Shown one piece after another: positions 10,328-22,147 of a DNA stretch of 22,215 bases. A model generated the notes under the pieces. It had not been told where the DNA came from and ran no database searches. It worked only from the letters and a program-made list of their open reading frames with translations. A program made the position numbers and the translations under genes. Within the stretch, counting starts at the first letter, position 1. The number at the start of each line of letters is the position of its first letter. Source of the stretch: a virus; IMG/VR virus record IMGVR_UViG_3300012920_000312, positions 1 to 22,215 of that record; one strand, 5' to 3'.

Positions 10328-10355
10328 TTGTAAATGATTATTCTTCTGGTATTAT
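10328..10355 (+). promoter_or_regulatory. Candidate sigma70-type rightward promoter with extended -10
   Basis: TTGTAA (10328-10333), a 16-bp spacer, and TATTAT (10350-10355) preceded by TGG, giving the extended -10 form TGnTATnnT. The start would be near 10362. AAAGGAG (10377-10383) and the first ATG of the small-gene operon (10392) follow at good distances. The candidate leftward promoter lies upstream in the same gap. Confidence 0.6.
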
Positions 10356-10391
10356 TGTCATATTGATTAACTAACTAAAGGAGAATTATCA

Positions 10392-10742
10392 ATGTCAAAC
10401 ATAAAACAAAGAAAATTTAGTATGCAAGAACTCACAATTATGCAAATGATTTGCGAGTATTCTTACGCAAAACATACAGACCAAAATGAGTTATTTACAT
10501 ACTTCAATCCAACGGATGTTAATACTTTAGGATATTTCAAAAATAAAACTTTTGCTTCTAAATATTCAAGAGAATTTTTTGACTGGATTTCAAGGGAATA
10601 CGTTCCAGAATTTGAAGGCTATCAAGGAGAATTAAAAGAATTATCAGATGAAGATAAGGAAACAATTGTTGAATTATCGGATGATTTTTTTAAAGACTTT
10701 GATATTGAAGATTTAAAAGCTAAAACCGAGGAAGTAGCCTAG
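10392..10742 (+). CDS. First gene of the rightward small-protein operon, unknown function
   Basis: 116 residues. The N-terminal half is mixed and aromatic (MSNIKQRKFSMQELTIMQMI, then CEYSYAKHTDQNELFTYFNP). The C-terminal half is acidic (LSDEDKETIVELSDDFFKDF then DIEDLKAKTEEVA). No family recognised, no membrane segment, no Cys pair that suggests metal. AAAGGAG lies 8 nt before the ATG. Its last codons and stop (GCC TAG) form the left arm and loop of an intrinsic terminator, so it is transcribed more than the genes after it. This makes it the likely main product of the promoter at 10328-10355. Confidence 0.8.
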   Translation: MSNIKQRKFSMQELTIMQMICEYSYAKHTDQNELFTYFNPTDVNTLGYFKNKTFASKYSREFFDWISREYVPEFEGYQGELKELSDEDKETIVELSDDFFKDFDIEDLKAKTEEVA

Positions 10743-10757
10743 CTACTTCCTTTTTTT
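10729..10757 (+). terminator. Intrinsic terminator built on the stop codon of the first gene
   Basis: A 10-bp perfect stem AGGAAGTAGC / GCTACTTCCT with a 3-nt loop (CTA) is followed by a run of T residues. The TAG stop (10740-10742) lies across the loop and the right arm. A ribosome reading to the stop would cover the left arm, so termination could depend on translation of this gene. Confidence 0.85.
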
Positions 10758-10771
10758 ATAGGAGAAACAAT

Positions 10772-10942
10772 ATGAAATTAACCAAAAGACAAAAAGAAGT
10801 TTTAGAGGATGTTTTATGGAAAGAGTCCAAAGAATTAATGAATTTAATTCATAGTGGCAGTAATTCTGTTGATAAAAGATATTGTTCTAACAATTTAAAA
10901 GTAGTTGATAACATTTTAGATAAAGTATTAGAGGAGAAATAA
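10772..10942 (+). CDS. Small unknown protein (56 aa) after the terminator
   Basis: 56 residues, MKLTKRQKEVLEDVLWKESK to VDNILDKVLEEK. It is helical by composition, with one Cys. GGAGAAA lies 5 nt upstream of the ATG. It ends with EEK because the ribosome-binding site of the next gene (GGAGAA, 10933-10938) is embedded in its last codons; the next ATG is 2 nt after its stop. No domain recognised. Confidence 0.7.
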   Translation: MKLTKRQKEVLEDVLWKESKELMNLIHSGSNSVDKRYCSNNLKVVDNILDKVLEEK

Positions 10943-10944
10943 TT

Positions 10945-11292
10945 ATGCAAATGCAAGTTGAAAAAATGTACGAATATAACCCTTATGACTCAGAATATGA
11001 GTTAGCCAAAGATAACAAAACATTTTTGGTTGTTTGGGGAGATGGTTATTTAGGCAACGAAGAAATTCCAGAAAATGAAATTTTTTATATTGAATCTTTA
11101 GAAGATGAATATTTTGTTATTCATCACTATACGCAACAAAGATTAAGTTATTTCAAAGAGATCGAATTAGCGGAAGAATGGCATTTAGAGGAATCTTTTC
11201 TTGATAAATTATTTGATGCTAGAGAAGGAGATTGGCTTACATATAGTGATTTAAGTGGAACAATCTGGTTTAAATGTATGAGGGAGAAATAA
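10945..11292 (+). CDS. Acidic, aromatic-rich small protein of unknown function
   Basis: 115 residues, rich in Asp/Glu and Tyr/Trp/Phe (VWGDGYLGNEEIPENEIFYI, then SLEDEYFVIHHYTQQRL). Tryptophans at WGDGY, EEWHL, DWLTY and TIWFK. It is predicted soluble. I do not recognise a family; strongly acidic proteins of this kind in phage accessory operons are sometimes DNA mimics that block host nucleases, but nothing here proves it. A good ribosome-binding site is contained in the preceding gene's end. It ends in REK, carrying the GGAGAA for the next gene. Confidence 0.7.
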   Translation: MQMQVEKMYEYNPYDSEYELAKDNKTFLVVWGDGYLGNEEIPENEIFYIESLEDEYFVIHHYTQQRLSYFKEIELAEEWHLEESFLDKLFDAREGDWLTYSDLSGTIWFKCMREK

Positions 11293-11294
11293 CC

Positions 11295-11477
11295 ATGAAT
11301 AAAAATGCAGAAAAACTTATCTCAAAAATAGGAGAAAAGAAGTACACAATTATTGCTATGTTGGTTGATGATTTAGGTTGGGATTATCAATCAATGACTG
11401 TAAGTGGGAGAGAAATTTATAAAAAGTTATGCCTTGAACTTGGTTGGGAATTTGAATGGGATGAGGAGTTAGGATAA
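11295..11477 (+). CDS. Small unknown protein (60 aa)
   Basis: 60 residues from the ATG at 11295, chosen because GGAGAA (11283-11288) lies just upstream; an in-frame ATG at 11274 would start inside the previous gene without a site. The sequence opens MNKNAEKLISKIGEKKYTII and ends WEFEWDEELG. It may form a helical N-terminal half with an acidic tail. No family recognised. The stop overlaps the next start as TAATG. Confidence 0.65.
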   Translation: MNKNAEKLISKIGEKKYTIIAMLVDDLGWDYQSMTVSGREIYKKLCLELGWEFEWDEELG

Positions 11478-11920
11478 TGAAAGACACTAGCAAACAATTA
11501 CTAAGCAAAAATAAAAAGCTATTCCCCTTCCATAGTGGAGGGGGATGTATTCACTTTGCCTATGAAACAGATCACGAGGATTTGATCTGGCTGATAAATA
11601 AAGCTGATTTATATAACCCAACATTTAATGATAAAGGATTTCCAGAGTTTGAATGGGTAAACGAGTACCCAGAAGATATAAATGATTGGTGTATGTTCGG
11701 ACTAGACTTTAATAATTTAGACCAAGAATATGAAAGACTCGCATTAAACATCATAGATGTGATTGAAAACGCAATTGGCAAACCATCTGATGATTATTCT
11801 TTTTCAAGTAATGATTGGTCGTGTGAATTTTTTACCAGATATCAAAAAGGCATCAATGTATTAAACGAACTATCGCCCAAGATAGACCAAGAAATAATTA
11901 AATTTTGTAAGGAGAAATAA
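11477..11920 (+). CDS. Unknown acidic protein (147 aa)
   Basis: 147 residues, opening MKDTSKQLLSKNKKLFPFHS then GGGCIHFAYETDHEDLIWLI. It contains Cys at residues about 24, 72 and 115 but no clear metal site. A mid part DINDWCMFGLDFNNLDQEYE is acidic and aromatic. No known domain. GAGGAG in the previous gene acts as the ribosome-binding site. It ends CKEK and carries GGAGAA (11911-11916) for the next gene. Encoded in the small-protein operon, so probably an accessory function against or for the host; unproven. Confidence 0.7.
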   Translation: MKDTSKQLLSKNKKLFPFHSGGGCIHFAYETDHEDLIWLINKADLYNPTFNDKGFPEFEWVNEYPEDINDWCMFGLDFNNLDQEYERLALNIIDVIENAIGKPSDDYSFSSNDWSCEFFTRYQKGINVLNELSPKIDQEIIKFCKEK

Positions 11921-11922
11921 CT

Positions 11923-12468
11923 ATGAGAGAAAATAATATGCTCTTTAAGTCAAAAGTATGTTTTGACGATTATTATGAAAAAAACCAAGATTCAAGTTTA
12001 ATTTACGATTGTTGGTTAGATGCAACTAGTAAAGGTTGGAATGGTTGGGCGATGCCTTATCTTGAAGAATCTGAATTCAATAGGTTTATGGAAAACATGA
12101 AAATTGATTTCAACAACATGGAAGATGATTATGATAAGGATTTTCTGGAAGAATTATCTCTAATTAAACCAGAAGTAATAAATGGCAAGACTATGTATTA
12201 TTTTGGCGGTTGGCTTACTTGGAATATTGAAGATGATGATTTTATTGAGAAAAGAGATAATTTGTTATCAAAAACTAAACCATGTAATCCAGTTAAAGAG
12301 TTGAAAGAATTTAGACTTGTAAAGATTTCTACCATTACTGAAGAATGTTATGTGATGGCGGATGATTGGGAAAAAGCTGAAGAACTAGGTCATTTATCCG
12401 AAGATTTAGATTGGAGAATGATGAACAGCAAAGCAGAAATTGAAGTTGATTCTTACGAGAGCGAATGA
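11923..12468 (+). CDS. Unknown acidic two-part protein (181 aa), largest in the operon
   Basis: 181 residues. The N-terminal part to about residue 115 is Trp-rich and acidic, with segments such as YDCWLDATSKGWNGWAMPYL, NNMEDDYDKDF and YYFGGWLTWNIEDDD. A second part from about residue 120 (EFRLVKISTITEECYVMADD, then WEKAEELGHLSEDLDWRMM) fits a strand-strand-helix layout of the xVxVxTxTEExYVxAD..E.AEEL kind found in small phage proteins. The first part may be an independent domain. No enzyme motif was found. Translation is coupled by the GGAGAA at 11911-11916. A ribosome-binding site for the following gene lies just after its stop. Confidence 0.7.
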   Translation: MRENNMLFKSKVCFDDYYEKNQDSSLIYDCWLDATSKGWNGWAMPYLEESEFNRFMENMKIDFNNMEDDYDKDFLEELSLIKPEVINGKTMYYFGGWLTWNIEDDDFIEKRDNLLSKTKPCNPVKELKEFRLVKISTITEECYVMADDWEKAEELGHLSEDLDWRMMNSKAEIEVDSYESE

Positions 12469-12480
12469 GGAGAAGTAACC

Positions 12481-12657
12481 ATGAACAAAAATTATTTAGA
12501 CAGTCTTAACAAAGATCAATTAGAAACTCGTATTTATGATTTGAACAATGAGTTAAACCAAGAATGGCATTTAGAAAGAATTATGAAATTAAGAACTGCT
12601 CAAAGATTACAAAGAGAAGTTTCTTATTGTGAAAAATTATTAAAGGAGAAAGCATGA
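12481..12657 (+). CDS. Small coiled-coil protein (58 aa)
   Basis: 58 residues, MNKNYLDSLNKDQLETRIYD, then LNNELNQEWHLERIMKLRTA and QRLQREVSYCEKLLKEKA. It looks like a helical hairpin with heptad-like leucines. GGAGAA (12469-12474) is 6 nt upstream of the ATG. Its stop overlaps the next ATG (ATGA). No known family, but such short helical proteins are common in phage accessory operons. Confidence 0.7.
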   Translation: MNKNYLDSLNKDQLETRIYDLNNELNQEWHLERIMKLRTAQRLQREVSYCEKLLKEKA

Positions 12658-12905
12658 ATAAATTAATTAGTATTAGAGCATATGAATATCAAGAATTAGA
12701 TGAAGATGCAAAAAATACATTCATAAATTCTATGTATGATTTTCCTTTTGATTACGAAGATGAAGATGAAGAAGGCAATACAATAATTAAATATAATTAC
12801 TTCGCCGATATGGATTTAGCAGAACAAATAGAATTTTGTGAAATGAATAAATATCTTTTTAATAAACATGGCGAACTAATTGGACACTTAGAGGAGAAAG
12901 CATGA
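12654..12905 (+). CDS. Small acidic protein with an ELDEDAK motif of a phage family
   Basis: 83 residues, opening MNKLISIRAYEYQELDEDAK. The motif Y.y.EL.edAK....., followed by an acidic/aromatic mid part (DFPFDYEDEDEEGNTIIKYN) and a C-terminal HGELIGHL, resembles a widespread phage protein group with the form ...F.ELS.EAK..A... and a late F...G.i. Function unknown. GGAGAA at 12645-12650 precedes it, and the stop overlaps the next ATG (ATGA). Confidence 0.7.
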   Translation: MNKLISIRAYEYQELDEDAKNTFINSMYDFPFDYEDEDEEGNTIIKYNYFADMDLAEQIEFCEMNKYLFNKHGELIGHLEEKA

Positions 12906-13198
12906 GATTTTATAGAGAGCATGGAGATATAGATCAAGAAATTTGGTGTAATTTTGATAAGGAAGTAAGGCAAGATAAAAAAGTTAGATACTTTGTTGAG
13001 TGGGATATTACTGAAGATATAGATGAAGTAATTAAAAATAAACTAAAAGACGAACTTCAAATTAACGAAGATAATTATTTTGCTATGGATAATATGGAAG
13101 GTTTTTGTACTTCTAGTTATAAAGAAGGCTTGAAGTTTTATTCTGATTTAGTATCAATAATTGATGAACAATTAAAAATATGGAAGGAAAAAGAATGA
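12902..13198 (+). CDS. Unknown acidic protein (98 aa)
   Basis: 98 residues, opening MRFYREHGDIDQEIWCNFDK. It has a strand-like VRYFVEWDITEDIDEVIKNK, then an acidic mid part and a helical end SIIDEQLKIWKEKE. No recognised family. It belongs to the chain of overlapping genes: its ATG overlaps the previous stop (ATGA), and its own stop overlaps the next ATG (ATGA). GGAGAA at 12893-12898 serves it. Confidence 0.7.
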   Translation: MRFYREHGDIDQEIWCNFDKEVRQDKKVRYFVEWDITEDIDEVIKNKLKDELQINEDNYFAMDNMEGFCTSSYKEGLKFYSDLVSIIDEQLKIWKEKE

Positions 13199-13332
13199 GT
13201 AGAAATTATCTAGTACAAGCACACTTAGAGTATTTGGTCGAAGAAGGCTTGAAAAAAGGACTAACCGAAAAACAAGCTATTGATTATGCAAACAATATAT
13301 TTTTTTCAAAGGAGATAATAAATGAGTGGTAA
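13195..13332 (+). CDS. Tiny unknown protein (45 aa)
   Basis: 45 residues, MSRNYLVQAHLEYLVEEGLK then KGLTEKQAIDYANNIFFSKE. It seems mostly helical. The ATG overlaps the previous stop (ATGA) and it overlaps the next gene by 11 nt. The upstream GGAAGG acts as ribosome-binding site. The end of the gene holds AAAGGAG for its neighbour. Confidence 0.6.
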   Translation: MSRNYLVQAHLEYLVEEGLKKGLTEKQAIDYANNIFFSKEIINEW

Positions 13333-13549
13333 TAAATCAGATGTAGCAGTATGTTTTGAAAGCGTATCTGAATTTTTTGATAACTATGATTATCATAGTC
13401 CAGAAGGTTGGCTTACTGAAATTTTAAATGGAAACATTGATTTAAACATAATGCGTAAAGCAATTTTGCATCATGCAGAAGGTAAATTTGAATCTTGCCA
13501 AGTCTTAGTTGATGAAATGCACATTCATAAATGGTGGAAAGATGAATAA
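13322..13549 (+). CDS. Unknown protein (75 aa), histidine- and tryptophan-rich end
   Basis: 75 residues, opening MSGNKSDVAVCFESVSEFFD. The middle has YHSPEGWLTEILNGNIDLNI and the end a His/Trp-rich MHIHKWWKDE. There is no recognisable domain; HH, HIH and two Cys could bind metal, but the spacing fits no known motif. AAAGGAG precedes it in the end of the previous gene. Its stop region overlaps the next ATG by 8 nt. Confidence 0.65.
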   Translation: MSGNKSDVAVCFESVSEFFDNYDYHSPEGWLTEILNGNIDLNIMRKAILHHAEGKFESCQVLVDEMHIHKWWKDE

Positions 13550-13670
13550 AGAACTATATTTTAAAAGACGAGCAAATTTAAAGACTGCTATACGCAAAGC
13601 CAAGTCTTTAGAGTTTAAGCAATTATATGTGTCAAAAATTATAGAACTTGATAAAATGTATCGTAGTTAA
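13542..13670 (+). CDS. Tiny basic protein at the end of the operon (42 aa)
   Basis: 42 residues, MNKELYFKRRANLKTAIRKA then KSLEFKQLYVSKIIELDKMY and RS. It is basic, unlike most genes in this operon, and appears to be a helical hairpin. It starts within the end of the previous gene. The anti-SD hairpin begins 6 nt after its stop. Confidence 0.6.
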   Translation: MNKELYFKRRANLKTAIRKAKSLEFKQLYVSKIIELDKMYRS

Positions 13671-13675
13671 TTAGC

Positions 13676-13726
13676 GTGGGAAAACTCTTTTTCTATAAGA
13701 TAATTCTCCCCTTAGAGTTTTCCCAC
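13676..13726 (+). promoter_or_regulatory. 3' hairpin with a loop complementary to the operon's own ribosome-binding site
   Basis: A 12-bp perfect stem, GTGGGAAAACTC (13676-13687) and GAGTTTTCCCAC (13715-13726), holds a 27-nt loop. In the plus transcript the loop ends GAUAAUUCUCCCCUUA (13699-13714). Its reverse complement matches the leader of the first gene: 11 of 11 bases pair with GGAGAATTATC (10380-10390), and CTAA further upstream pairs too. The core GGAGAA also occurs at seven later junctions of the operon. No U-tract follows either arm, so it is not a standard terminator. It could be a 3' UTR-derived RNA that occludes translation starts, or a DNA-level repeat. Confidence 0.55.
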
Positions 13727-13864
13727 CACTAAACCATGCAAAGATCAAAAACTCTCTTAAAACCAGAACATAACTCAATCAAAAAAAAATCTTCTCAGTC
13801 GAGAAAAAAAAGAATCTCATCTAGCACGATGAATAAGCAAAAAAAACGAATTCGTGGCAAGAAT

Positions 13865-14296
13865 TTAAAAATTTCTGGTAGGTAATTCTTCTCTTAATAA
13901 TTTATTCAAGCCAACTAAAAGAATATGTCTGCGAATACCACGTCTGCTTTTTCGCATGAGCGTTTTATTTTCCTCGTCTGCTAACCAAACGATATTCCTT
14001 TCCTCACTTGCTAATTCAATTAAAGCATTACTAACTGTCTTATGACTCATACCGCACATGAGCGCATAATATCTATTACTATCATGCGAACTCCAGGTTT
14101 CTAGTCTATGCCTTTCACAAATCGCCCATAAAGTTAATTTACTAGCCGGACTTAAATCTTTTCTCCCCACGTTCGCACGATACCACTTCCACACGATCTT
14201 TTTCGCTTCTCCGAACGAACGATAGCGTTTCGCTACGCTCGTCTGCACGAACGCACTAGCGCTTTCATTCTCTACTTCTTCTACTAACCACCACAT
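13865..14296 (-). CDS. Winged-helix DNA-binding protein, candidate replication initiator or regulator
   Basis: 143 residues. A helix-turn-helix/winged-helix core occupies about residues 48-110: DLSPASKLTLWAICERHRLE, then YYALMCGMSHKTVSNALIEL and a wing-like ERNIVWLADEENK. The C-terminus is basic (LMRKSRRGIRRHILLVGLNK). This is the layout of phage/plasmid replication proteins and DnaD/RepA-like wHTH regulators. It is preceded by a long inverted repeat, a TA tract and four 21-bp repeats. It lacks a Shine-Dalgarno sequence, and a TATAAT sits 5 nt before the start, so it could be leaderless. Base composition from about 14160 to 14275 is more GC-rich than its neighbours. Whether it binds the repeats is inference. 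Confidence 0.6.
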   Translation of the reverse strand: MWWLVEEVENESASAFVQTSVAKRYRSFGEAKKIVWKWYRANVGRKDLSPASKLTLWAICERHRLETWSSHDSNRYYALMCGMSHKTVSNALIELASEERNIVWLADEENKTLMRKSRRGIRRHILLVGLNKLLREELPTRNF

Positions 14297-14789: not shown

Positions 14790-16030
14790 AATTCCATATT
14801 ATTCAAAATGTGAGCGATAACATCAACAGTCCACCCATTACCAAGCATCTTATATCTTTGTGTATTTGATACATAATTAGTGTAATCTTTTGGAACTGTT
14901 TGAAGCGCTTCACATTCTCTTACTGTTAGCTTTCTCCAATGCAAATCATCAACACTATCCCACTCATGCCTATCATACGATCCTCTACCGCCAGAGCGGA
15001 CTGTTTTAGATTCAGTCCTAAGTTTTGGCTCAGTTTTCACAACCACACTATCTTTTTGAATTGATCCTATTGAATTACTTTTTTGATCTTTTCTTAACTC
15101 CAACATTTGTTTAGGTTTTGTTTCTTTCCAGGCCACCCTCTTACCATCTTTCTTAGATCTTGCTCTCCAGGCCCCAGATACAACTTTTGGCTCACGATTA
15201 CCACCACCCATTGAGTTTAGTGTTGGCGATTTACCATCTGGAGAATAAACTCTTTTAAGTATGTCGTGTCCTTTTATATCTGTAGCTATACCCACTTGTT
15301 TAGGTTTAGTTTCAATATAACTCGCATCAGTTGGCTCTTTGTGATAACCGGCAATCAAAGTGCCTATTTTTTCTGAATCTTCATTATAAAAGAAACCTTT
15401 ACCTCTTGGAGAGTTTAAAACTCTATCAACCTTTGCATCAGAAAGTTTATATTTTTCCTCTGGATTTTCTTCAAGAATATCTTTTAAAACTATGCCCTTA
15501 TCTTCTGGTTGTTCAATATTAGGTATATTAGTCCAATATAATCTCTGTCTATTCTGTGCGCTTACTAAAGCTGAATTGATTAAGATAGGTTTTATTTGAC
15601 TGCCAAACAAATCGCCACCTTCAAACTCTGGATAACAAGCTGATACTTGTTCAGTAATGACATCTTGAAATTGTTGCTTCATTTTTACATTTTCTAATAA
15701 AAAATATTTTGGCTTGATACCTTTTAACATCCTAATAAATTCAAAAAACAATGCGGAACGTGGATCGTCAAAAGCTAATTGTTTTCCGGCAAAGCTGAAA
15801 CCTTGACATGGACTACCGGCTAAAATTAAATCAATGTCTTGAAAATCTTCTGTTTTTAAATTGCAAACATCTCCAACTTGTATTGTTTCAGGAAAATTTG
15901 CTTGGCATACCTTAATAGCATATTTATCTATCTCACTAGCATAGTAAGTGCTTACTTCTATTCCAAGCCTTTGCAGAGCTAGTTGTCCGCAACTCATACC
16001 ATCAAATAAACTTAATACTCTTAATCCCAA
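14786..16030 (-). CDS. DNA (cytosine-5-)-methyltransferase
   Basis: 414 residues. Motif I LSLFDGMSCGQLAL (AdoMet binding) lies near the start. Motif IV is GSPCQGFSF with the catalytic Cys near residue 75, motif VI is ENV at about 113-115, motif VIII is QNRQRLYW at about 159-166, motif IX is RKLTVRECEALQTVP at about 366-380 and motif X is LGNGWTVDVIAHI near 396-408. All catalytic motifs look intact. A target-recognition region of about 195 residues between VIII and IX is long and carries repeated TKPKQ phrases. No restriction partner is visible, so it is an orphan enzyme, probably protecting phage DNA. The start is TTG, overlapping the primase-helicase end by 10 nt. Confidence 0.93.
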   Translation of the reverse strand: MGLRVLSLFDGMSCGQLALQRLGIEVSTYYASEIDKYAIKVCQANFPETIQVGDVCNLKTEDFQDIDLILAGSPCQGFSFAGKQLAFDDPRSALFFEFIRMLKGIKPKYFLLENVKMKQQFQDVITEQVSACYPEFEGGDLFGSQIKPILINSALVSAQNRQRLYWTNIPNIEQPEDKGIVLKDILEENPEEKYKLSDAKVDRVLNSPRGKGFFYNEDSEKIGTLIAGYHKEPTDASYIETKPKQVGIATDIKGHDILKRVYSPDGKSPTLNSMGGGNREPKVVSGAWRARSKKDGKRVAWKETKPKQMLELRKDQKSNSIGSIQKDSVVVKTEPKLRTESKTVRSGGRGSYDRHEWDSVDDLHWRKLTVRECEALQTVPKDYTNYVSNTQRYKMLGNGWTVDVIAHILNNMEL

Positions 16031-20745: not shown

Positions 20746-21051
20746 ATGAAAAAGACAATGTGTTTTCGAGATCAATTAAAAATGGATGGTTTTTCGACTT
20801 CATTAGAGGACTCTCCATGTATAAGCGTTTGCTCGACAACCTATGGTTTGAAAGATAGTTGTATCTGTGGTCGCAATCTCAAGCAAATAAGTTCTTGGAA
20901 TTCTTACGATACGCTTACAAAGAAAAAAATAGTGATGAACGCCATCCAGGACAAAAATTCGTTTCCTAGACAAAAACTTACTTTTTTGGCAGACGATCAT
21001 AATATTTCTTTTGATAAGGCTAAGCAGATTTTTGTTATTGATAAACTATAG
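20746..21051 (+). CDS. DUF1289-like small cysteine-rich protein
   Basis: 101 residues from the ATG at 20746; an ATG at 20701 would precede the candidate -10 and is less likely. The core DSPCISVCSTTYGLKDSCIC then GRNLKQISSWNSY matches DUF1289 (SPC..VC....G.C.GCGRT..EI..W). The second pair is CxC here, where the family normally has CxxC, which is odd. The rest is a basic helix and a short end (DDHNISFDKAKQIFVIDKL). DUF1289 proteins are mostly of proteobacterial genomes and thought to bind metal. It converges on integrase, overlapping its end by 17 nt, and looks like a separately transcribed accessory gene. Confidence 0.75.
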   Translation: MKKTMCFRDQLKMDGFSTSLEDSPCISVCSTTYGLKDSCICGRNLKQISSWNSYDTLTKKKIVMNAIQDKNSFPRQKLTFLADDHNISFDKAKQIFVIDKL

Positions 21052-22147
21052 GAAGTTGAATATCTGAGAGAATTTCGTTTCCGATTTTCTCTATATTTTC
21101 TTTACTCGTTCTATCCTCAATATGTTGATAGCGTTGCATCATAGACAAAGATTTATGGCCCATAAGCTCTCCAGTCTGCAAAGTTTGAATTTTTGCAGAA
21201 TTTGTTGAAATCGTACCAAAACTGTGGCGTAAATCGTGTAAAACAAGGTCATTACACCCACAAGCTAATTTAACGCTATTCCACAGCTTTATTGGATTTT
21301 TGATACCAAGTATCGTTTTTTTCTTTTTTTCGCCTTGTAGCGCTTGTATGACACTCCGACTTTGAGAATTCAACCAAATTTTTCTAGTTTTGCCATCTTT
21401 ATCGGTTTTATGATCCTTTAGTTCAATGTAATCGCCATGCCAATCTTCCCATCTTGCTTTAGCCAATTCTCCCTTTCTAGCGCCAGTAAAAATAAGCAAT
21501 AATATAAAACTTACAGAATAAATTAGTGTTCTATCTTCATCTAATCTTCTAAATAATTCCTGGAAAATTTTTAATTTTTCTTCAGGTGTATAATGTCTAT
21601 TTCTTTTTACCTCAAGATGTTTTTTAATTCTACTTGCCGGATTTATTTCAATAAACTCGTAATCTATCGCAATCTCAAAAACAGTTTTTAAAATAGTTAG
21701 ACAGCGATTAGCTGTATATTTTGACCTAAGACTTAAATCATCAAACCAAGATTTAACATCTCCTCTGCTGATTGTATCTATTGGTAAATGACCAAAACCA
21801 GGCTTGATGTCTTTCTCGTACAAGCGCACATATTCTTGAATGGTCTTTCTGTTGTTCATCTCCAACTGTTGTTGATATTTTGCAAAGACATAATCTGTCG
21901 TTGGTGTCTGCTTGTCGTTCTTAGCCAAAGGATCAAAGTTAGTATCAAGCAACATCTTGGCTTGTAGTTCACTTGCAATCTTGCGTACTGTTTGTATCGG
22001 CATACCGCCATGACCAATCTTCATGTTTCTGCGTTTGCCATTGAAAGTATATTTTAGATAGTAGCTTATTTGTTTCTGGCCTTTGCTATTAGTCCAGGCC
22101 ACTTGTTTTATACTTTGATTAAGTTTGTCTGAGGTTATCTTTTTCAT
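21035..22147 (-). CDS. int: Tyrosine-recombinase integrase
   Basis: 370 residues. An arm-binding N-terminal part (SYYLKYTFNGKRRNMKIGHG) is followed by a core-binding domain and the catalytic domain. All key residues are visible: R224 in TGARKGEL, K247 in DHKTDK, H304 and R307 in HDLRHSFG, H331 in LMGHKSLSM and Y340 in QRYQHIED. So the enzyme looks active. It integrates the phage genome into the host chromosome; the attachment site could not be located. It lies 1 nt downstream of a small membrane-protein gene, which may be cotranscribed. Its 3' end overlaps the convergent DUF1289-like gene. Confidence 0.95.
   Translation of the reverse strand: MKKITSDKLNQSIKQVAWTNSKGQKQISYYLKYTFNGKRRNMKIGHGGMPIQTVRKIASELQAKMLLDTNFDPLAKNDKQTPTTDYVFAKYQQQLEMNNRKTIQEYVRLYEKDIKPGFGHLPIDTISRGDVKSWFDDLSLRSKYTANRCLTILKTVFEIAIDYEFIEINPASRIKKHLEVKRNRHYTPEEKLKIFQELFRRLDEDRTLIYSVSFILLLIFTGARKGELAKARWEDWHGDYIELKDHKTDKDGKTRKIWLNSQSRSVIQALQGEKKKKTILGIKNPIKLWNSVKLACGCNDLVLHDLRHSFGTISTNSAKIQTLQTGELMGHKSLSMMQRYQHIEDRTSKENIEKIGNEILSDIQLPIVYQ

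Follow-up and report, generated by a model that had tools for sequence, protein, structure and literature searches.

An operon-end hairpin of uncultured marine phages with a loop complementary to the ribosome-binding site of the operon's first gene

We describe a hairpin located at the 3' end of a small-gene operon in an uncultured marine phage and its relatives, the loop of which is complementary to the ribosome-binding site that opens the same operon. Comparison of relatives gives good support to the view that this complementarity is biological and is under selection. The reading that we favor, with a probability of roughly 70%, is that the hairpin would act as a 3'-end antisense element that represses translation of the promoter-proximal gene as a form of negative feedback. 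A first-pass annotation of this DNA had proposed a regulator residing in the 3' UTR, or a separate small RNA, and when aimed at the first leader this appears to be the best account of an RNA that is made from the operon strand and whose pairing is selected.

The stretch of DNA analyzed, referred to here as the window, comprises the 22,215 bases of a virus record and belongs to a podovirus-like phage. Its minus strand holds structural genes and replication-type genes, and between these two sets lies a plus-strand operon of small uncharacterized genes that spans positions 10392 to about 13885. The first gene of this operon (10392-10742, plus strand) encodes a 116-aa protein without a known family and has an unstructured leader (fold z -0.4). 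A sigma-70-like promoter candidate (10328-10355, plus strand; TTGTAA-N16-TATTAT with an extended TG) would leave a 5' UTR some 30 nt long; it is a consensus match only, and such matches are no commoner in the window than in shuffles. The remaining operon genes (10772-13549, plus strand) are small uncharacterized ORFs with mostly GGAGAA-type ribosome-binding sites, followed by a 42-aa ORF (13542-13670, plus strand) for which many close relatives have a homologue. This ORF ends in a stop codon 5 nt ahead of the hairpin, which is on the same strand as the operon. One further short ORF may follow; this 49-aa Lys/Arg-rich ORF (13736-13885, plus strand) starts 9 nt past the hairpin without a Shine-Dalgarno sequence, and it has counterparts in relatives L030, L098 and L099; inspection of more distant types turned up none. 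Convergent with the operon is a replication-initiator-like HTH gene (13865-14296, minus strand; phrog_270, E 5.8e-5), referred to here as repA, for which no relative was found in INPHARED.

The hairpin itself consists of a perfect 13-bp stem with a 5' arm GTGGGAAAACTCT (13676-13688) and a 3' arm AGAGTTTTCCCAC (13714-13726) that together enclose a 25-nt loop TTTTCTATAAGATAATTCTCCCCTT (13689-13713), all on the plus strand. These outer coordinates are exactly those reported previously, and the earlier count of a 12-bp stem and a 27-nt loop is corrected here. It exceeds in length every other perfect stem of the window that has a loop of 60 nt or less, with stems of at least 13 bp occurring 0.2 times on average per shuffled window, and the RNA fold of 13660-13740 has an energy of -23 kcal/mol (z -6.1). 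We considered and rejected an intrinsic terminator, as there is no U-tract directly 3' of the stem (the sequence past 13726 is CACTAAACC) and the hairpin is not among the predicted terminators; the plus strand downstream of the hairpin also has no terminator-like site up to position 15000. A promoter candidate for the hairpin at 13629-13657 was likewise discarded, being inside coding sequence in a region where promoter-like matches are no commoner than in shuffles. Neither a promoter nor a terminator marks out a discrete small RNA here. A search of Rfam gave no match in the window at the gathering threshold, and at a relaxed threshold gave only chance matches around the hairpin.

Within the loop, the anti-RBS segment GATAATTCTCC (13699-13709, plus strand) is the reverse complement, at 11 of 11 positions, of GGAGAATTATC (10380-10390, plus strand), the stretch that makes up the first gene's Shine-Dalgarno sequence and spacer. 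This 11-nt match, already recognized in the first-pass annotation, is the longest complement of the loop on the entire plus strand of the window. The additional match to CTAA at 10375-10378 with a one-base offset was also described correctly, as was the recurrence of GGAGAA at seven further junctions of the operon (10761, 10933, 11283, 11911, 12469, 12645 and 12893); we find three more copies within genes (10626, 11331 and 12413). An 11-nt match to this leader is found for 16 of about 19,900 random 25-mers from the window (~0.08%, about 1 in 1,000). The window by itself is thus only suggestive of a functional pairing, and the test must therefore come from relatives. Prediction of duplex energies, a check that had been proposed earlier, gives -16.3 kcal/mol for the loop with the first leader versus -13.3 for the best internal ribosome-binding site, with a few other plus-strand sites in the window forming computed duplexes slightly better than that with the leader (-17.3 vs -16.3). 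The internal ribosome-binding sites pair less well than the leader, which gives no indication that each gene is controlled directly, and a translational shutdown of the operon as a whole is not supported. Any effect on the later genes would presumably need polarity or termination.

Using the hairpin, the large terminase and repA as queries, we obtained several hundred IMG/VR loci, in which repA served as the anchor for locating hairpins. The hairpins of these relatives occupy the same spot, between the operon end and the convergent repA. Their stems differ almost completely (GTGGGAAAACTCT, GAAGGAAGGTTTC, GAAGCAGCGGCAA, GTAGGAAGGTTTC, GTATAGGGTTATC, GAGTACGCTTCTT and others), and within the window's own lineage, A, the loop core is retained although the stems change. 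When six 13-bp stems are compared, all 78 cells are paired (100%) with both-sided changes at 12 of the 13 pairs. The stem covariation score is 1.108, versus 0.30 for shuffled alignments and about 0.2 with a slid partner or structure, a count for which loops were hand-trimmed to equal length so as to keep the stems in register. Two successive hairpins are present near the operon end in L060, L062, L064, L133 and L153, both with anti-SD loops in L062 and L064.

The type of wobble pair in these stems identifies the strand that matters. We used a strand-neutral search that scored G.T and A.C alike, where an A.C on one strand would be a G.U on the opposite strand, and across 22 distinct anti-RBS stems counted 230 Watson-Crick pairs together with 19 G.U pairs and no A.C pairs on the plus strand (p = 2e-6); this set was picked by loop content, which has no bearing on wobble type. 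Matched hairpins from a held-out set of genomes gave G.U versus A.C counts of 10 to 1, and a set taken without selection, chance hairpins among them, gave a weaker bias of 41 to 31. The presence of G.U but no A.C on the operon strand indicates that the functional molecule is an RNA made in the direction of the operon. A minus-strand reading, for which the loops of many relatives look like a ribosome-binding site plus ATG, was rejected as neither the window nor L017, L022 or L098 retains the ATG; it is also opposed by the plus-strand stem wobbles and by a weak minus-strand control.

Among 110 genomes with a strong hairpin, 62 have a loop run of at least 8 nt complementary to their own first leader. 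The Shine-Dalgarno region is covered in 56 of these matches, nine reach the start codon, and the pairing is centered on positions -12 to -6. With loops chosen by stem strength only and compared at the level of clusters, duplexes with the own leader are stronger than those with foreign leaders (z = -5.2, 18 clusters), while controls using flanks, shuffled loops and the minus strand gave z values between -1.9 and +1.0. The longest perfect match is likewise longer with the own leader than with foreign ones (z = 8.3, 27 clusters), the own leader being the best, ties included, in 13. Additionally, in a table of eight loop/leader types each loop binds its own leader best in all rows. A flank-only test with the Shine-Dalgarno core masked is borderline (z -1.7, p 0.05) because masking breaks the helix too. 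Across clusters, the leader ranks first among ribosome-binding sites in many, but not all, genomes.

We repeated the same pipeline on contigs fetched later, which comprised 33 new genomes, 26 of them with hairpins, in 14 clusters. The held-out contigs gave z = -4.9 for energy and 5.3 for match length, where identical 3' regions were removed, a few loci may stem from contigs of the first set and one cluster (L329) lies near an old one. This set includes new matched types, namely L282 (TTTACGGAGA), L326 (CTTTGGAGAAG), L259 (GGAGAGTAAA) and also L296. In another relative, L222, the leader AAGGAGAGTAAA is matched at 12 of 12 positions by a loop with TTTACTCTCCTT. The complementarity is therefore conserved in relatives in the sense that loops differ by lineage yet track their own leader. 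An inert inverted copy of the leader, which had been offered as the alternative to an RNA role, is rejected by the stem covariation, the G.U strand bias and the repeated re-matching of loop and leader across lineages.

Type A, which includes the window, L002, L013 and others, has the leader GGAGAATTATCAATG and a loop that contains the GATAATTCTCC segment. In type B (L028, L030 and L091) the leader GGAGAAATATTATGAAA and the loop TTTCATAATATTTCTCC match over 17 nt, start codon included; the type-B counterpart of type A's GGAGAATTATC is GGAGAAATATTATG, and the type-B repA is about 90% identical to that of the window. Further types are represented by L036/L187 (GGAGAAAACACA), L055 (AAGTGAGgtAACAATGGA, where the start codon is also covered), L074/L199-L212 (TACTTTAGG plus GG), L169-L172 (GGAGATAAATA), L155 (TTAATTAAGGAG) and L054 (AGGAGGGAAT). 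The loops of L036, L047, L103 and L187 have one anti-SD stretch, CACTCTCC, that may serve a different gene and a second one, GTTTTCTCC, that matches the first leader. In L074 and L199 a near-copy of the leader (TACTTTAGGAGGTA) is also located ahead of the second gene. Loops of most types, for example at 13710-13711 of the window and in L074 and L160, have a C that faces an A of the Shine-Dalgarno sequence in lineage after lineage. Such positions (for example CCCC against AAGG) are A.C mismatches that make the antisense imperfect, and this feature may limit pairing with other ribosome-binding sites.

A stem that is kept while its loop complementarity is lost, the observation that had been named as one that would speak against a regulatory pairing, is seen only as mosaic exceptions. 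In L005/L009 and L022 the hairpin is retained and the pairing weakened, and these genomes are probably mosaics. In L093/L096 the leader of the first gene is unmatched (-9.3 kcal/mol) and gene 2, which has a canonical type-A leader, pairs at -19.3, so that the predicted pairing follows the leader to gene 2. L216 has a loop in common with L055 that pairs in another register. Little or no match between loop and leader is found in the L069 type, the L107 type, L157 and L160, and the L075 group matches only weakly.

We propose that the hairpin would function as an antisense element, either within the operon transcript, whose 3' end it occupies, or as a small RNA cut from that transcript. The stem would serve as a scaffold that displays a single-stranded anti-RBS in its loop, and the loop would pair within its own operon's promoter-proximal leader, where it would cover the Shine-Dalgarno sequence and spacer and at times the start codon too, thereby blocking ribosome loading on the promoter-proximal gene. 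Such feedback would be delayed, as the RNA exists only after polymerase has reached the operon end, after which translation from the first leader would be damped. Action could be in cis through a 3'-UTR contact, in trans through a processed RNA, or both, with a possible knock-on to downstream genes through Rho or, in some lineages, through a terminator at gene 1. The sequences show the hairpin, its pairing potential, its strand and the covariation of the stem and of loop with leader, the last of these replicated. The proposal further assumes that loop and leader would encounter each other in the cell and that their pairing would be repressive; the RNA may also be processed, and downstream genes may feel the consequence. 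A shared site in leader and loop for a single-strand RNA-binding protein was discarded, because the two are reverse complements and a strand-specific protein would see different motifs.

The terminator-like element at gene 1 of the window (GAGGAAGTAGC...GCTACTTCCTT plus a T-tract; 10728-10759, plus strand) resembles an intrinsic terminator and straddles the stop codon. It is found at the same place in L005, L017 and L097 and after gene 2 in L093/L096, and is absent from the other relatives compared. The hairpin of this element is always at the stop of a gene with a type-A leader, where a terminating ribosome would cover it. Loss of gene 1 translation could let the straddling terminator form and thus cut downstream transcription. 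As a universal part of the mechanism the element was rejected, since it is present only in some type-A genomes, and with most relatives being devoid of it such a step would at best be a lineage-specific addition.

Repression from the 3' end of an operon has precedents in bacteria. CarZ and OppZ of Vibrio cholerae are autoregulatory sRNAs derived from the 3' UTRs at operon ends that repress their own operons, with CarZ targeting the first gene of its operon; they are cut by RNase E, require Hfq and have a Rho-independent terminator at their end (PMC7398697). Like these sRNAs, the phage hairpin is found at the 3' end and on the same strand, at the same position in relatives, and its loop is complementary to a translation start in its own operon, apparently kept by selection. 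Unlike them, it belongs to phages, has no Rho-independent terminator and presents its anti-RBS on a single long stem, and its loop and leader covary in many types. In the icaR mRNA of Staphylococcus aureus a UCCCCUG motif at the 3' end pairs with the mRNA's own Shine-Dalgarno sequence, blocks ribosomes and recruits RNase III (PMC3868564). At the level of sequence the phage hairpin is similar in having a 3'-end anti-SD that is complementary to a Shine-Dalgarno sequence of the same operon mRNA. It differs from that cellular mRNA with its 7-nt motif in that a polycistronic phage operon is involved and that matches of ~8-17 nt reside on a covarying hairpin.

Other roles for the same pairing have to be weighed against repression of the phage's own leader. 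The hairpin could instead be an immunity or superinfection RNA akin to c4: expressed from a resident phage, it would chiefly target, in trans, the leader of a relative that enters the cell. Two phages that share a type would then silence each other's promoter-proximal gene while other types escape, with the types being specificity groups whose loop and leader co-diversify like immunity types. We regard such RNA-coded specificity as unlikely, although close relatives such as types A and B do switch loop and leader, the eight-type table has the own leader bound best, and the window contains an ORF at 21035-22147 that by eye we take to be integrase-like. The c4 RNA sits upstream of its target and has more than one complementary segment. 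A precedent exists in that the complementary loop sequences of this antisense RNA of phages P1 and P7 bind around a ribosome-binding site (PMC12197685). The phage hairpin shares with c4 a loop complementary to a ribosome-binding site, but is 3.3 kb downstream of its target and matches no Rfam family. Weighing against immunity, no separate hairpin promoter was identified, one type is common to many genomes and cross-type energies are not negligible.

Less likely still, the hairpin could be directed against Shine-Dalgarno sequences in general and lower the translation of many messages from phage and host, the first leader being one target among them. Staphylococcal sRNAs with C-rich loops, such as RNAIII and RsaE, direct UCCC-type loops at Shine-Dalgarno sequences and are independent genes with many trans targets. 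The phage loop is similarly C-rich and aimed at a Shine-Dalgarno sequence, but it is one hairpin tied to its own operon. A CUCC-like anti-SD in nearly all matched loops would suit such broad damping, as would internal ribosome-binding sites that score near or above the leader (L030 gene 2, L169/L171); however, specificity for the own leader extends past the Shine-Dalgarno core across lineages, and the C-opposite-A substitutions weaken generic Shine-Dalgarno pairing.

A positive or structural role, in which contact between the 5' and 3' ends stabilizes, circularizes or protects the operon mRNA, would draw on the same pairing evidence, and a 3'-end hairpin without a U-tract could be a stability element. 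We consider this improbable, as the pairing is centered on the place where the ribosome binds, which favors repression, and as the icaR and CarZ precedents both repress. A DNA-level element, such as an operator, recombination site, inversion repeat or replication origin, would fit the inverted copies that flank the operon and the adjoining replication-type gene; it is nonetheless highly improbable given that the stems have the wobble signature of RNA, that stem sequences are unconserved and that the register of the loop-leader match varies. Chance or a neutral inverted leader copy, which the low complexity of ribosome-binding sites and the 1-in-1,000 frequency of the window's match might otherwise allow, is scarcely credible in the face of stem and loop-leader covariation that is replicated in held-out genomes.

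The distribution of the hairpin appears to be restricted. A counter-oriented small-gene operon beside the terminase genes is also present in L219-L221, the terminase of which is about 50% identical, but it ends in ordinary terminators or lacks a hairpin that matches. The distant phages MW202898, OR003940 and MW202483 (terminase about 50%) have operons laid out in a similar way with ordinary terminators or no matching operon-end hairpin, and thus the element seems limited to the uncultured marine group. No prophage with a close terminase was found in a host search of 84,980 genomes. The L222 contig, with a terminase 83% identical to that of the window, was binned with an uncultured Candidatus Pelagibacter MAG, which is a weak hint of a SAR11-type host. 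With no counterpart in Rfam, and with a literature search that covered an open-access subset of papers, the element is perhaps best called a marine-phage family of operon-end anti-RBS hairpins.

To our knowledge, few cellular operons have been found to encode a 3'-end RNA that targets the operon itself. The hairpins described here would make such an RNA widespread in a large group of uncultured marine phages, in many re-invented versions that each match themselves. They would provide a natural series of compensatory pairs for studying how an RNA at the end of an operon times gene expression, as well as a route to finding such regulators from sequence alone. Finally, they raise a possible tie between RNA pairing and the specificity of phages toward one another.
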